From positions 4,770,910-4,834,909 of the forward strand of contig OY282382.1 of assembly GCA_958295905.1 (NCBI GenBank): a stretch of DNA of 64,000 nt. Reading direction: 5' to 3'. The position numbers were made by a program, and so were the translations under genes. The notes below the pieces were generated by a model. It was not told the origin of the DNA, ran no database searches, and saw nothing but the letters and a program-made list of their open reading frames with translations. This document shows positions 15,643 through 29,496 of the stretch, piece after piece (the first letter of the stretch is position 1; each line of letters starts with the position of its first letter). Origin of the DNA: an uncultured Vicinamibacterales bacterium (GTDB lineage Bacteria > Acidobacteriota > Vicinamibacteria > Vicinamibacterales > UBA8438).

Positions 15643-18085
15643 GAGGGTCCTCCCTGCCGAGTCCGGTCCGCCTTGCCCATGCCCCTCTGCCGCGCCTCTC
15701 CGGCATCGGGGACCGCAGAGGCTCGCACCGGGACGAATCCCATACCGTGGGATTACCGACTGTATCGGCCGCGCACTCCCGGAACTTCATACGCCGCGCC
15801 GCCGCCTGCGGCAGTTCTTGCCGGTGTCGCTGGCGCTCTGTCTCGCCGGCGCCGCCGGTGCGGCGGCGCCGGCCCAGCCGCCGCCGGAGACGCCGCCTCG
15901 TCCCGGCGCCGCGGCCGGCGCGGGGCGGCCGATCGTCCGGCCGCCGCGGGCGCAGGCCCCCCCGGTGATCGACGGCCGGCTCGACGACCCCGTCTGGAGC
16001 GCCGCCGCCCACATCACCGCGCTCGTCCAGCGCCGGCCCCTCGACGGCCCCCCGGCCAGCGAAGCGAGCGACGTCTACGTCGCCTACGACAGCGCCAACC
16101 TCTATCTAGGCCTGCACGCCCACTACACCGATCCGGGCATGATGCGCGCGAACCGGCGCGACCGCGACCAGACCGTCGAGGACGACCTGTTCCTGGTCTA
16201 TTTCGACCCGTTCCTCGACCAGCAGCGGGCCTACGTCTTCACGGTGAACGGCTACGGGGTGCAGGGGGACGCGATTCTGCGGGCGGGGGCCCTGGGGGGC
16301 GGCCGCTTCGGCGTCCCCCGCGGCGACGCCTCCTGGGACGTGCTCTTCGAGACCGCCGCCCGCATCGTCGCCGACGGCTTCGTCGCGGAGATGGCCATTC
16401 CGTTCAAGAGCCTCCGGTATCCGCAACGGGAGGCGGGGACCGCCCACCGGTGGGGTCTGCAGATCGCCCGCACCATCGGCGGCAAGGACGAGGCCGACGT
16501 CTGGTCGCCCACGTCGCGCGACATCGCCGGCTTCCTGCCCCAGATGGGTCTCCTCGACGGCATGACCGACCTCTCGCGCAGCCACAACCTGGAGATCCTG
16601 CCCACCGTCACCGCGACCCGGTTCGGCTCCCTCGACCGCGGCACCGGCCGGTTCCGCGAGGGAGACCCGTCGCCCGAGGGCGGCGTCAACCTGAAGTACG
16701 GCGTCACGTCCAACCTCACCGCCGACGTCACCTTCAACCCCGACTTCTCGCAGATCGAATCGGACCTGCCGCAGATCGAGATCAACCAGCGGTTCGCGCT
16801 GTTCTACCCCGAGCTCCGCCCCTTCTTCCTGGAGGGGGCCGAGATCTTCAACATCCGGGCGCCGATCACCGCGGTCCACACCCGCACCATCGTCGATCCG
16901 GCGTACGGCGCCAAGCTGACCGGCAAGGTGGGACGGACCACCCTCGGGGTGATGTACGCCAACGACGCCGAGCCGGGGAACGTGGACGACGACACGGACC
17001 CGGCCTTCAGGCAGGCCGCGCACACGTTCGTGGGCCGGGCGCGCTACGACCTCTACACCGAGTCGCACGTCGGGGCCGTCTTCACCGACCGGGAGCTGCT
17101 CGACGGTTACAGCCGGCTCGCCGGCGTCGACTCGAACTTCCGCCTCGGCGACACCCACGCGGTCGCGTTCCGCGCCATGGGGACCGACCACCAGGACCGC
17201 CGGGGCGGGCAGACGACGGGCCATCTGCTCGACGCGAGGTTCAGCAAAAGCGGCCGGAACCTGCGCTACGCGGTGTCCTCGTACGCGCTGTCGCCCGAGT
17301 TCAAGACCGACGTCGGGTTCGTCCGCCGTAACGATCAACGCTACACGTCGGTGACCGGGGGCTACCGCTGGTGGCCGGAGCACTGGCTCCGCAACTGGGG
17401 GCCCGAGTTCGTCTACGGGCGGAACTACGGCTTCGCGGGGGTCCTGCAGGACGAGGTCGCCGACGCCGGCATCAACCTCGCCCTGGCCCGGAACATGTTC
17501 GTGGCCGGCAACGTCCGCCGCGAGCTGGAGCGGTTCGGCGGCATCGAGTTCGTCAAGACCCGCGGCCGGGTCTTCGGCCGGGTGGACACCAGCCGGCGGA
17601 TCGGCGTGTCCCTCGAGTACCGGCGCGGCGGGCAGATCCGCTTCGACGCCGACGCGCCCTACCTCGGCCGGGAGCACGGCATCTCCGCGTCCATCAACCT
17701 GCGTCCCGCACCGCGCCTGCGATCGGCGATCAACGTCACCACGAACCGGTTCACCGATCCCCGCCGCAACGGCCGCGCGGTCTTCGACGTCCAGATCTAC
17801 CGGGCCCTCACGACCTACCAGTTCAGCAACCGCCTGCTCTTCCGCAACATCAGCGAGTACAACACGCTCGACGGGACGCTGGACCTGAACTTCCTGCTCA
17901 CCTACCGGGTCAACGCGGGCACCGTCTTCTATGCCGGTTACGACGACCACTACCAGCGGGCGGACCTGATCGAGGGCGATCTCCTGGACTGGCGCGACGT
18001 CGGCGGCCGCGGCCTGCGCGCACTCGGGCGCCGGCGAACGAACCGCGCGGTCTTCCTGAAGCTCCAGTACCTCTTCCGGTACTGA
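15641..18085 (+). CDS. DUF5916 outer-membrane protein with CBM9-like domain (second paralogue)
   Basis: The frame is open from 15581. The true start is uncertain because the hydrophobic signal (FLPVSLALCLAGAAGAAAPA) begins at about 15815 and no ATG precedes it closely. ATG 15641 would overlap the divergent OmpA start, and non-ATG starts at 15806-15824 (CTG, TTG, GTG) are plausible. The mature protein has the CBM9-like domain (PPVIDGRLDDPVWSAAAHIT ... YDSANLYLGLHAHYTD). The long beta-strand DUF5916 region contains ALFYPELRPFFLEGAEIFNI and VTFNPDFSQIESD, ending in LKLQYLFRY. The expected location is the outer membrane. It is a paralogue of the protein at 7629-9932 but clearly diverged. Confidence 0.83.
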   Translation: MRVLPAESGPPCPCPSAAPLRHRGPQRLAPGRIPYRGITDCIGRALPELHTPRRRLRQFLPVSLALCLAGAAGAAAPAQPPPETPPRPGAAAGAGRPIVRPPRAQAPPVIDGRLDDPVWSAAAHITALVQRRPLDGPPASEASDVYVAYDSANLYLGLHAHYTDPGMMRANRRDRDQTVEDDLFLVYFDPFLDQQRAYVFTVNGYGVQGDAILRAGALGGGRFGVPRGDASWDVLFETAARIVADGFVAEMAIPFKSLRYPQREAGTAHRWGLQIARTIGGKDEADVWSPTSRDIAGFLPQMGLLDGMTDLSRSHNLEILPTVTATRFGSLDRGTGRFREGDPSPEGGVNLKYGVTSNLTADVTFNPDFSQIESDLPQIEINQRFALFYPELRPFFLEGAEIFNIRAPITAVHTRTIVDPAYGAKLTGKVGRTTLGVMYANDAEPGNVDDDTDPAFRQAAHTFVGRARYDLYTESHVGAVFTDRELLDGYSRLAGVDSNFRLGDTHAVAFRAMGTDHQDRRGGQTTGHLLDARFSKSGRNLRYAVSSYALSPEFKTDVGFVRRNDQRYTSVTGGYRWWPEHWLRNWGPEFVYGRNYGFAGVLQDEVADAGINLALARNMFVAGNVRRELERFGGIEFVKTRGRVFGRVDTSRRIGVSLEYRRGGQIRFDADAPYLGREHGISASINLRPAPRLRSAINVTTNRFTDPRRNGRAVFDVQIYRALTTYQFSNRLLFRNISEYNTLDGTLDLNFLLTYRVNAGTVFYAGYDDHYQRADLIEGDLLDWRDVGGRGLRALGRRRTNRAVFLKLQYLFRY

Positions 18086-22692: not shown

Positions 22693-23880
22693 TTACGGAT
22701 CGGATCCTTCGAAAAAGCCCTGTTTCCACAAACGCCCCATCTGGTCTCCATCCGCCATGAAGGAGGAGATCTGCGCGTTGTCGCGGGCGCGACGCACTTC
22801 AGTGAAGCCCTGTCGTTTGACCAGCCAGAAAACCTCGTTGACCCCGACCGCGTTCAGGAAATCGGGCGAATGGGTGGACACGAACACCTGCCCCCCCCGA
22901 TTGGCGTACGCCCTGAATTCCTCCGCCAACTCCCACAGCAGGGTCGGGTAGAGCTGATTCTCCGGCTCCTCCACGCACAGCAGGGAATGCGGCTCCGGGT
23001 CGTACAAGAGCACGAGATACGCGAACATCTTGATGGTCCCGTCCGACACGTACCTGTCGACGAACGGGTCCACGAAGGAGTCGTCGCGAAAACGCAGCAG
23101 GAGCCTGCCGTCCGGCGTCGGCACGGGGGTCACTTCGCTGACGCCCGGCACGCGCCGCTTCATGGCTGCGACGATCCTGGCGAAAACATCGGGCGCACTC
23201 TCGTGAATGTTCTTGGCCACCAACTGGAGGTTGTCGCCCGTGACGGAAAGATGATCGGCGTACCCTGCCGCGTCCTTGCTGCCGCGGGCCAGATTGATGT
23301 GAAAATCGGAGACATGCCAATTCTCGATCAACTGCCGAAAGGCGCTCGCCGCCTTGAACCGCTCGAACTGCCCCAAACCTTTGATGGCGAGCACGTCCCT
23401 GCCCACGGACTGAGGCTCACGTATCAACTCTTCATCCGATTTGTCGAACAACTCTTCGTTGGTGATGGCGTAACCGGAACCGTCCGTGAAGTCCAGAAAG
23501 CGGAACGGAGAGCCGTAGCGCCCGCGCTTGTAGCGGAGTATTTCCCGCCGGACGACGGGCCGGTTCCGTTCCTGCCCGATTCTGAGAAGATAGGTGACGA
23601 GACGATTGACGCGCGCGATCTCTAGGCGGAACTTGACTTCGATCTCGATCGGCAAACTCGGATCTTCTCCCCGGCTGATGATCTCGGAATAGCCGCCCCG
23701 AGTCTGCAACGCCTGACGCACGTTGAACGTCAGGCAGTCCCTCAGAAAACCGAAGACGTCGAACAGTGTGCTCTTTCCGGCGCCGTTCGCGCCTACGACC
23801 ACGCAGCAGGACGGAATCTCCAGCATCTTGACGTCTTTGAAACTCTTGAAATTCTTCAGCCTGATGGACTCGATATGCAT
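22693..23880 (-). CDS. AAA_21-type ABC ATPase
   Basis: 395 residues from ATG 23880 (MHIESIRLKNFKSFKDVKML); a GTG at 23907 would add nine residues. Walker A is GANGAGKST (about 29-37). The signature region is YVSDGTIKMFAYLVLLYDPE. Walker B plus catalytic Glu is LLCVEEPENQLYP, and the H-loop is VFVSTHSPDFLNAV. The tail GDQMGRLWKQGFFEG is typical of this RloA-like group. These ATPases pair with DUF4276 proteins in presumed defence cassettes. Here the only DUF4276 sequence nearby is a broken fragment in the opposite orientation, so the ATPase is probably an orphan. The frame itself looks intact. Confidence 0.85.
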   Translation of the reverse strand: MHIESIRLKNFKSFKDVKMLEIPSCCVVVGANGAGKSTLFDVFGFLRDCLTFNVRQALQTRGGYSEIISRGEDPSLPIEIEVKFRLEIARVNRLVTYLLRIGQERNRPVVRREILRYKRGRYGSPFRFLDFTDGSGYAITNEELFDKSDEELIREPQSVGRDVLAIKGLGQFERFKAASAFRQLIENWHVSDFHINLARGSKDAAGYADHLSVTGDNLQLVAKNIHESAPDVFARIVAAMKRRVPGVSEVTPVPTPDGRLLLRFRDDSFVDPFVDRYVSDGTIKMFAYLVLLYDPEPHSLLCVEEPENQLYPTLLWELAEEFRAYANRGGQVFVSTHSPDFLNAVGVNEVFWLVKRQGFTEVRRARDNAQISSFMADGDQMGRLWKQGFFEGSDP

Positions 23881-24107
23881 CTCCGCCGCCCCGCCCTTCC
23901 CCGGCACCTGTCACGCCACCTCAAGGCCACCCCGGCGGACGGATTGCCCGGAATCCTCCCCGGATTCGCCCCGCGGCCGGCACAATATGCGCAACCGAGC
24001 CACGATATCCACGCGAGAGGCGCTCCGTCAAGGTCCAACTAACGCGCGCTGCCCGCGCGGACAAACCCCAGAGCCGCCTGTTCTTCCACCGTCGGCAGCC
24101 TGCGCAG
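23881..24107. other. intergenic, nothing recognised
   Basis: No coding or structural signal was found between the ATPase start and the IS1380 relic. Confidence 0.4.
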
Positions 24108-24353
24108 CTACCGCAGTGTCGAATCGATCCGCTGGCCGATCACGTCCGCGCGGGCGCGCCGAATCTTCTCCGGGGCACGTTTGTCGGTCAGACATCCTGC
24201 GAACGCCTTGACCAAGCCGTACACCCGCTCGGCCGCCTTGAGCAGCACCCCGCCGCGGTCAGAGCTTGCCTGCTGTTGATCGAACGTGGCGACGAGGGGC
24301 TTGTCGAAGAGATCCGGGAACCGGACAGTCTGTGATAGGGTGTCAGGCGTCAC
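24108..24353 (-). pseudogene. IS1380-family transposase N-terminal fragment
   Basis: 81 codons. The sequence FPDLFDKPLVATFDQQQASS, DRGGVLLKAAERVYGLVKAF and AGCLTDKRAPEKIRR match the start of IS1380 transposases (VxFDxxQASSDGGALLLKxxxRxxGL). The frame ends after IGQRIDSTLR, where the intact enzyme would continue for another ~350 residues including the DDE catalytic core. The insertion sequence is thus truncated. No terminal inverted repeats were matched. Confidence 0.8.
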
Positions 24354-26506: not shown

Positions 26507-26857
26507 CCCCCTCTCCACGCCCCCCCCTTCTCCAGGTGATCGACTACGCGGCTTGCTGTTGCGCATTGCCGGATCCCTGCCCGTCCGGCTGATGCTCTGC
26601 GCTGACAACAGGCCGTGGTGAACGCCGCGTCGCCCCGAGAGCAGCGGAGGAACCAGCGGGCTGAAGAACGCCCATGCCTGACCAAGCGTGAGGAGGGCGC
26701 CTATCGGGCATATTGCAACCGCGGACTGCAAGCAGTCCGGCGAGCAACGCAGTCAGGCGGATGCATCGCCGCTCGATGCAGCGGGGACTTCACCACGGGC
26801 TGATAAGATCGAGCCGCCCGAGCGGTCATCCTCCCGACGCCGAAGGGGAAGCGAACC
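26507..26857. other. intergenic, nothing recognised
   Basis: 350 bp between the flavoprotein and the ParB-like gene. A GAAGGGGAAG stretch just before ATG 26858 serves as ribosome-binding site. No other feature is supported. Confidence 0.4.
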
Positions 26858-27559
26858 ATGATGGATGAAACCCCGGAACAGATGCGCGGCAGGCGGCAAT
26901 CCGTGTCGCTCAGTCGCCTCTACCTCGACCCGAACAACTTTCGGTTCGTGGACCATCCTGAGTACCGGCTCGTACCACCCGAGCGCGTGTTCGATCCGGA
27001 CGTGCAGCGGCGCACGACCAGCTTCGTGCTGGGACGCCAACAAGAGAACGTTCGGGATCTGATCGCGAGCATCAAGGCCAACGGCTGGCTCGACATCGAT
27101 CCAATCCTGGTCCAGCGTACGGAAGCGGGTCGATTTCTCGTGGTCGAAGGGAACCGGCGCGTAGCGACGCTCAAGCATTTGCAGCGTCGCTACGAAGAAG
27201 GCGCCATCGATCTCGGCAAGCTCGACCGTGCGCTGTTTTCGGAGCTGCCCGTCGTTCTCTACCGAGACGCGGGCGAGCGCGATCGCCTGGTGATGATGGG
27301 GCTCCACCACATCTCGGGCAAGCGGCGTTGGCCCGCCATCAACCGCGCACGGGCGATGGAGCGGCTCCTCCCCCACTTCGGGAACGATACGGATGCGGTT
27401 TGCCGAGCTCTCGGCGTGAGCAAACGCGAGTTCAACCTGTCGATAAGAACGCTGGCGCTGGTGAACGCCTACAAGGAGAGCGACTACGGCGACCAGTTGC
27501 AGTCCGATCAGTACAACCTGTTTCGCGAGGTTCTCAAGAGCGGGGAGATCCGCACCTAG
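26858..27559 (+). CDS. ParB/Srx-fold nuclease-like protein, ended by an in-frame amber codon
   Basis: 233 residues. It begins MMDETPEQMRGRRQSVSLSR and shows a ParB/sulfiredoxin-type fold: VSLSRLYLDPNNFRF, then LIASIKANGWLDIDPILVQR, FLVVEGNRRVATLKHLQ (the conserved E-G-N-R-R element) and a helical HTH-like portion (VCRALGVSKREFNLSIRTLA). The TAG at 27557-27559 interrupts a frame that continues without another stop to 29050. The sequence just after it (LGWDHTAGAASNRSNLNRLF) is clearly coding-like and continues the ParB-type protein. A TGG-to-TAG mutation is a simple explanation. Related genes sit beside ABC ATPases in presumed defence loci. Confidence 0.75.
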   Translation: MMDETPEQMRGRRQSVSLSRLYLDPNNFRFVDHPEYRLVPPERVFDPDVQRRTTSFVLGRQQENVRDLIASIKANGWLDIDPILVQRTEAGRFLVVEGNRRVATLKHLQRRYEEGAIDLGKLDRALFSELPVVLYRDAGERDRLVMMGLHHISGKRRWPAINRARAMERLLPHFGNDTDAVCRALGVSKREFNLSIRTLALVNAYKESDYGDQLQSDQYNLFREVLKSGEIRT

Positions 27560-29050
27560 CTCGGCTGGGACCACACGGCAGGCGCCGCTTCCAACCGGTC
27601 GAACCTCAATCGGCTCTTTTCCTGGATGTCGCGGGAAGCGGGATCCGACGAGGGAGAGGAAGACGGCCAGGACGTCGACGTTCGGTCAACGCCCGATCCC
27701 GTAGTGACCACCGGGGGCCACGTTCGCGAGCTCGCCAAGATCATTGCGGACCCCGACGCCGTCAAGAGTCTCGACGAAACCCGCAGTCTTCAGGAGGCGA
27801 CGCTTTCCAGCAATCTCCTGGTCAGAAGCGAAATCGACGGCGCGTTCAAGTCGTGCGACAGCGGTATCCAGAAACTCGACCGACGGATCGGAGAACTGGA
27901 GTCCCGCGAACTCGACAGAGTCGAGCAACTCATCGGCAGGCTCCAGGGCATGGTGCTGGCCCGCAAACGCCAACCGCCGGGCGCCGGCTTCCGGTTGCCG
28001 CGGCAACCCTTCAACGAAATCACGCAATCGAGGTTCTCTTGCCTCCGCATCGAGAGCTACCGCAGCATCGACGGCCTCACCCTTGAGGCCCCGGGTCGAA
28101 TCAATCTCATCGTTGGTGTGAACAACGCCGGGAAGACGTCGCTGCTCGAAGCGATCTACCTGCTCGCCCACCAGAACGACGAGCGGGCTCTTCTGGACGC
28201 CATCCGCTGGCGCGGCCGGGTGGAGGGCGATCCCCCGGCGCTCTGGCTCGTCGAACAGCTTCCGCGCACCATCCGTATCTCGGGATGTTTCGACCGGCTC
28301 CCGGACAACACGACGAGCGTCGAGTTCGAGGTCGCCACCGAACCCGAACCGGACGTAGAAGACCAGACTTCCTTTCTTTCGAAGCTCGCCATCGAATCCA
28401 GCTACGGCGCGCGCGTTCAGAACACGGACGTCGTGTTCTTTGGGGATCGCCCCCGGCGGACCCGTTTCGAGGGGCAGCATTGGCTTTGCCGTTCTGCGTT
28501 CACGAGCCCGTTCTCGGCCAACCGCCCCGAGACGCTTGCGCGCTGCAACAAGGAAAGCCTGGAGGCGGGAACGAAGCGGCAGCTCATCGACTTCATCCGG
28601 GAACGGGTCGATCCCGGACTCCGGAACATCGAACTGGCCGATCGCTTCAACCGGTTTCTGGTCAGTCACGATGACTTCGAAAAGGCGCCGGACTTGGCGA
28701 CTTTCGGCGAGGGCGTGCGGCGTGTCTTCGAGATCGGCTTGCTCTTCGCCGACGTCCGGGGCGGCGTGCTGCTCGTCGACGAATTCGAGAACGCGATCCA
28801 CACGGAGCTCCTCGTGGAGTTCACGCGTCTGGTTCAGGACCTCGCGGTCAAGCTCAACGTTCAGGTCTTCCTGTCGACCCATAGCAAGGAGGCGATTGAC
28901 GCCTTCGTTCTGAACGAACACCGACCCGACGACGTCGTCGGCTATGCGCTCAATCGTACCGACGGCGGCGTCAGGGCCAAGCGCTACGACGGCAACAAGC
29001 TTCGCAAGCTCCACGACGCTGTGGATTTCGACCTGCGAGGCGTGCGATGA
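27560..29050 (+). CDS. C-terminal part of ParB-like protein fused in frame to an ABC (OLD-like) ATPase
   Basis: The frame is the same as the upstream ParB gene and open throughout; the first usable ATG is 27626. Residues ~1-145 continue the ParB-like protein, with a coiled coil (GIQKLDRRIGELESRELDRV). From about 28040 an ABC ATPase begins: FSCLRIESYRSIDGLTLEAP, Walker A GVNNAGKTS, Walker B GGVLLVDEFENAIH and H-loop VFLSTHSKEAIDAFV. The tail VRAKRYDGNKLRKLHDAVDF is typical of ATPases paired with a TOPRIM-like partner. The stop overlaps the ATG of such a partner's remnant. Without suppression the product would be an ATPase with a short N-terminal extension. Confidence 0.75.
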   Translation, partial: LGWDHTAGAASNRSNLNRLFSWMSREAGSDEGEEDGQDVDVRSTPDPVVTTGGHVRELAKIIADPDAVKSLDETRSLQEATLSSNLLVRSEIDGAFKSCDSGIQKLDRRIGELESRELDRVEQLIGRLQGMVLARKRQPPGAGFRLPRQPFNEITQSRFSCLRIESYRSIDGLTLEAPGRINLIVGVNNAGKTSLLEAIYLLAHQNDERALLDAIRWRGRVEGDPPALWLVEQLPRTIRISGCFDRLPDNTTSVEFEVATEPEPDVEDQTSFLSKLAIESSYGARVQNTDVVFFGDRPRRTRFEGQHWLCRSAFTSPFSANRPETLARCNKESLEAGTKRQLIDFIRERVDPGLRNIELADRFNRFLVSHDDFEKAPDLATFGEGVRRVFEIGLLFADVRGGVLLVDEFENAIHTELLVEFTRLVQDLAVKLNVQVFLSTHSKEAIDAFVLNEHRPDDVVGYALNRTDGGVRAKRYDGNKLRKLHDAVDFDLRGVR

Positions 29051-29378
29051 AGGCGGTGTTGGTGTTCTGCGAGGGGCACCATGCCGTCGTGTTCGCTCAA
29101 ATCATCTGGCGCCGATGGTCAGGGGGGCGTGGCCCGAAAGGTACTCGGGGGCCGAGCGTTTCGTCGACGACAACCGGGACGGCGACGACAAGGTGTCCGG
29201 CAGAGAGGCGGAGCGGCTGAAGGCGATCATCACGGTCACGGGACAGTTCGACCACCCGGGCGATCCCCTGTCGATCGTCATCGGCCGAACGGGCCTGCCG
29301 CGCGCGCAATTCGAAGCGTCTCCGCTGAGTGCGGGGCTCGCTGATTTCCTGGCGCGAGCCCCATGGAACGACGCGTGA
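29047..29378 (+). pseudogene. TOPRIM-like (DUF3226/DUF4276-type) partner gene, internally deleted
   Basis: ATG 29047 overlaps the ATPase stop (ATGA). The first ~18 codons (MKAVLVFCEGHHAVVFAQ) look like the beginning of a TOPRIM-type protein, where VEGxxDxxF is the usual start. The frame then fails. A different frame resumes at about 29145 with RYSGAERFVDDNRDGDDKVS and later SIVIGRTGLPRAQFEASPLS, reaching a stop at 29376-29378. The centre of the gene is missing and the two ends are out of frame, so the third component of this cassette is dead. Confidence 0.7.
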
Positions 29379-29496
29379 GAAAAGCGTGCAGGGGGCGGCG
29401 GGTCGCCTGAGAGCGCGCAGCTCCATCCGGCGGCGGACGGCAGGGGCCGCCAACACCGGCGTACAGGCGACACCGCCCCCGAGTCCGGGGTGGGCA

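Follow-up and report, generated by a model that had tools for sequence, protein, structure and literature searches.

A very probably pseudogenised copy of the candidate defence system PDC-M38 in an uncultured Vicinamibacterales bacterium

A PDC-M38-like two-gene cassette at positions 26808-29378 (+) of the window, the 64,000-nucleotide stretch of a Vicinamibacterales contig (OY282382.1) analysed here, is a broken representative of a candidate system which is known, already in the databases and apparently untried. The bounds of the cassette are those of its DNA homology to a locus from the same genus (L013) and one from the same family (L014). The first gene, gene A, is interrupted by an in-frame TAG, and the second, gene B, has lost most of its length to a deletion. 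That a single cassette carries two independent lesions suggests that its function has been lost, and the whole is very probably a pseudogenised copy of PDC-M38. The event itself is an ordinary one, the making of a pseudogene, and the family is of modest interest. The split frame is nevertheless settled as a broken gene rather than a new architecture, and the likely annotation of gene A as two separate proteins is corrected.

An interrupted ParB–ATPase fusion gene

The frame from 26858 to 29050 translates as 731 codons, with a terminal TGA and a sole internal stop, the TAG at codon 234 (27557-27559), as a first-pass annotation made from the letters alone had reported. At this base composition, one stop or none in 730 random codons would arise by chance with a probability of ~1e-5. 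A purine-rich stretch, AAGGGGAAG, lies immediately 5' of the ATG at 26858. The same annotation had described protein-like sequence in one frame on both sides of the stop, and this is borne out. Both sides match a single PADLOC model, PDC-M38A (715 positions), of which positions 6-227 align with residues 9-232 before the TAG and positions 230-715 with residues 1-494 after it. The GC content at the three codon positions is likewise similar, at 0.68/0.40/0.79 before the stop and 0.67/0.42/0.80 after it.

The 5' part of gene A (26858-27556, +) encodes a ParB-like module of 233 amino acids (PDC-M38A, E 7.9e-87). Its Box II GxxR motif, GNRR (G98, N99, R100 and R101), is invariant in 30 sequences. 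The ParB/Srx fold proposed at first pass is favoured by this motif, although the Pfam ParB_N match falls just under the curated cut-off (23.9 versus 26.3 bits). The 3' part (27560-29050, +) encodes a helical hairpin followed by an OLD/Rad50-type ABC ATPase (PDC-M38A, E 1.1e-128; Pfam AAA_21 and AAA_15). The ABC ATPase was correctly named at the outset, whilst the supposed coiled coil is predicted instead to be the helical hairpin (residues 322-345 and 352-374 of L013). Structural comparison of the ATPase part alone retrieves the ATPases of Rad50/SMC, PtuA and GajA, with Z scores of 16-19.

Two origins had been offered for the shared frame: a nonsense mutation in a fusion protein, or a deletion joining two adjacent genes. 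A homologue scan with one genome per species yielded 42 loci. All 34 of the genome loci covering the stop position encode Trp there, and in all 34 the ParB part runs in one frame into the ATPase. The codon is TGG in each of the seven close relatives compared at this level. Among 15 loci from viral contigs, a few of them near-identical copies, 14 can be aligned at the position; Trp is present in every one of these, and the frame continues into the ATPase in 12. The viral loci L114 and L115 have the ParB-like module without this ATPase, other genes following instead. They keep the Trp, and their proteins stop at ~364-396 residues, some 130 residues beyond it. Thus the TAG is not the natural end of the module, as it would be if the shared frame were incidental. 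The closest relative, L013, shares 80% identity across the full 730 residues, and its frame stays open for 733 codons with no stop.

Since every covering genome locus is fused and carries Trp, comparison of the sequences identifies the TAG as a nonsense substitution in a natural ParB–ATPase fusion gene. That two neighbouring genes, one ParB-like and one for an ATPase, were instead fused in frame through a deletion is scarcely credible. The parts are indeed separable in evolution, for L044 has the ATPase only and L048 a different N-terminal domain. However, the sequence is colinear on both sides of the position in the 34 fused loci, and DNA homology to L013 is unbroken across the TAG (26808-29100).

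Loss of gene B and the decay of the cassette

The first-pass annotation made no mention of gene B, which starts at 29047 and is also broken. In nearly all relatives the start of gene B coincides with the gene A stop or lies no more than a few bases from it, mostly as ATGA. The intact, Toprim-like gene of L014 has 285 codons. The window retains its first 18 codons at 29047-29100 (+), the start overlapping the gene A stop as ATGA (tblastn, residues 1-18 of L014 gene B), and a C-terminal remnant in another frame at 29101-29378 (+). The latter corresponds to residues ~194-285, as judged by tblastn with L014 gene B, by DNA alignment and by a weak match to PDC-M38B (E 3e-4). Between the two lies an out-of-frame deletion of net 526 nt, into which the conserved DxD of gene B falls. 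Across relatives E9-G10 is invariant, as is D136 of the DxD, whilst D138 is nearly so.

The predicted structure of gene B (pLDDT 88) supports a Toprim fold in general. Its best structural match is 2p62 (Z 14.7 over 220 residues, rmsd 3.6). The model also aligns with the C-terminal Toprim domains of OLD nucleases (Z 8.0-9.2 over 171-177 residues, with 171-173 residues at an rmsd of 4.1-4.5 for Z 9.2) and with the Toprim part of retron Eco2 (Z 7.1). The natural products are, for gene A, a protein of ~725 residues comprising the ParB-like module, the helical hairpin and the ATPase, and, for gene B, a Toprim-like protein of ~285 residues. In the window the nonsense substitution at the invariant Trp cuts the first short before its ATPase, and the deletion deprives the second of its Toprim core.

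The TAG might alternatively be a sequencing or assembly error, with gene A intact in the organism and gene B alone broken. A single base separates the TAG from the conserved Trp codon, and gene A is otherwise under normal constraint and has no second lesion. The context, CCTAG, differs by one base from CCTGG, a methylation-type site, and the genome carries several genes for cytosine-5 methylases. Long-read base callers can err in contexts near methylation-type sites of this kind. A base error could account for the TAG but hardly for the 526-nt deletion, and so gross a loss in gene B of the same cassette indicates that the locus is decaying anyway. An error is distinctly unlikely when this is taken into account, though it is the chief source of doubt about the broken-cassette reading. 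Deamination of a methylated cytosine (CCTGG to CCTAG) was considered as the cause of the TAG and set aside; it is possible but only a guess, and the window shows no shortage of CCWGG (211 occurrences versus 163 in dinucleotide shuffles).

The substitution in gene A appears to be young. Pairwise dN/dS for gene A is ~0.22 against both L013 and L014, the value for the L013–L014 pair being 0.24. At 412 columns which are invariant in the outgroup, lineage-specific departures number 10 in the window, 9 in L014 and 24 in L013. Gene A is thus still conserved, and on these comparisons the stop is recent, the gene not having drifted for long without selection. The lack of any sign of relaxed selection could possibly reflect either a recent event or a fragment that is still used.

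It has also to be considered whether the TAG is read through, or translation restarted downstream, to give a working full-length or split product. The dN/dS of gene A does resemble that of intact relatives, and the ATG at 27626, the earliest start codon 3' of the TAG, is in frame. No ribosome-binding site is visible in the sequence preceding this ATG, however, and a separate ATPase start at 27626 was ruled out for want of one. Amber suppression is unlikely on the tRNA complement. The search for suppressors proposed at first pass found the anticodon CTA in none of the 47 typed tRNA matches of the genome, amongst which there is one tRNA-Trp (CCA). Furthermore, a stop at this position is seen in no relative, and destruction of the Toprim partner leaves nothing obvious to control. 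A working product by either route is highly improbable, and a pseudogenised cassette is by far the better reading.

The cassette of L013 may be decaying too, to judge from its sequence. There gene B carries a frameshift, and in gene A an Asp stands in place of the nearly invariant H678 (L013 numbering), the position expected for the ABC switch histidine. More widely, gene B has a frameshift, a stop or an internal deletion in four relatives in which gene A is open (L013:6979-7828, L022:8184-9054, L030:8166-8637 and L038:8058-8412). This hints that the effector-like gene B is lost first, in a sample that is small, includes some draft assemblies and is biased because the loci were found by gene A.

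Related systems, and how intact relatives probably work

Gene A matches the PADLOC model PDLC04607 of PDC-M38 lengthwise on both sides of the TAG, and the PDC-M38B models (PDLC04612-04617) match the gene B remnant as well as the intact gene B of relatives. Both genes of the window are broken, in contrast to those of a working member, and the cassette is a broken copy by descent. There is a likeness to PARIS, in which an ABC ATPase is also followed by a Toprim-type protein; the ATPase of gene A matches AriA with an E-value of 1e-19. Gene A nevertheless scores 428.6 bits with PDC-M38A versus 69.3 bits with AriA, and it has an N-terminal ParB-like module of ~230 residues and a linker, both absent from the AriA models. 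Gene B has no match to AriB, and for the intact genes of relatives no models other than those of PDC-M38B reach E <= 0.01.

Outside PDC-M38, the best match of the ATPase part is AbiLi of AbiL (E 2e-31), an ATPase with a Toprim partner whose model (340 positions) lacks a ParB-like module. The N-terminal region of the PD-Lambda-5 A protein resembles the ParB-like module (E 7e-12), but its C-terminal part is different and the best match spans residues 13-110 only. The module shares its GxxR Box II and its fusion to another domain with the ParB-CTPase-fold proteins of a recent survey (PMC12704722), the available part of which names HNH, methyltransferase and other fusions and not an ABC-ATPase one. 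According to the survey, the nucleotide bound by this fold is reliably predicted neither by sequence analysis nor by AlphaFold3 (PMC12704722).

The N-terminal module of gene A is, on sequence comparison, exchangeable between relatives. In L048 (4573-7029) an AAA-type NTPase domain takes the place of the ParB-like one, whilst the ATPase and the partner gene are the same. The ATPase-only gene of L044 has as neighbours a small gene and one for a second ABC-type ATPase. In the wider family the ParB-like module is joined to an ATPase of the PARIS/OLD type that is paired with a Toprim protein, and some relatives have other N-terminal parts.

By analogy, intact relatives probably work like PARIS/OLD-type ATPase–Toprim systems. 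In PARIS the ATPase, AriA, senses a phage protein and frees AriB, a Toprim protein which cuts tRNA (PMC12409363). The ATPase of intact relatives would similarly hold or activate the Toprim nuclease and release it on a phage trigger, and the ParB-fold module would supply nucleotide-dependent input or regulation. The release-type action and the regulatory input are both inferred from these likenesses. PDC-M38 remains a candidate for an antiviral role on the basis of its listing as a database candidate, its likeness to related families and the genes found beside it. A literature search found no experiment on PDC-M38 and no paper naming it.

Genomic setting and distribution

The position of the A–B pair among BREX genes supports a defence role for intact relatives. 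The order is PglX–A–B–PglZ in L028 (1243-11887) and L035 (1138-12750), and BrxC–PglX–A–B in L050 (96-9056). A survey of BREX loci has described OLD-ABC/Toprim pairs as back-up effectors (PMC12839542), modules which these three pairs resemble. The window cassette differs from BREX-embedded modules in having no PglZ neighbour; no PglZ match lies within the window range, and three PglZ loci are found elsewhere in the genome. Two of the genomic PglZ matches, at 664490-665008 of the main contig (G000:C1) and 16264-16782 of a small contig (G000:C3), are equal in score, model range and open-frame length and are possibly a duplicate or an assembly repeat.

The fused architecture of the wider family, its alternative N-terminal parts and the three cases beside or within BREX together make it a testable proposition that a nucleotide switch controls a defence nuclease. 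A fuller scheme, speculative and on the doubtful side, would have an exchangeable ParB-fold nucleotide switch (an AAA-type NTPase in L048) gate an OLD-type ATPase which restrains a Toprim toxin, at times as a back-up layer to BREX, with the toxin-like partner lost before the ATPase gene when the cassette decays.

The homology which bounds the cassette is limited to it. In blastn against L013 it consists of two blocks, 82% and 80% identical, which meet at 29100/29101. Homology to L014 covers 26893-29381, the L014 locus starting at its contig end. Neither locus has flanking genes in common with the window. The fused architecture had been called uncommon at first pass. As a catalogued candidate-defence architecture, with the 42 loci spread over many phyla, it is not so in general. 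The remark does hold within the phylum, where the only strong match to the cassette, in 1 of 396 sampled genomes, is in the window's own genome. Homology confined to the cassette and a sparse distribution in the phylum are as expected of a cassette moving between lineages. In plasmid records relatives appear only as partial, weak matches, and in phage records the matches are only partial and to the ParB-like part.

Two further features lie upstream of the cassette in the window. A second ABC-type ATPase gene at 22693-23907 (-) matches PADLOC HEC-01B over almost the entire length (E 3e-211). A short ORF at 24108-24353 (-), judged by eye only, resembles the start of an IS1380-type transposase and may be a sign of mobile-element activity near the cassette.
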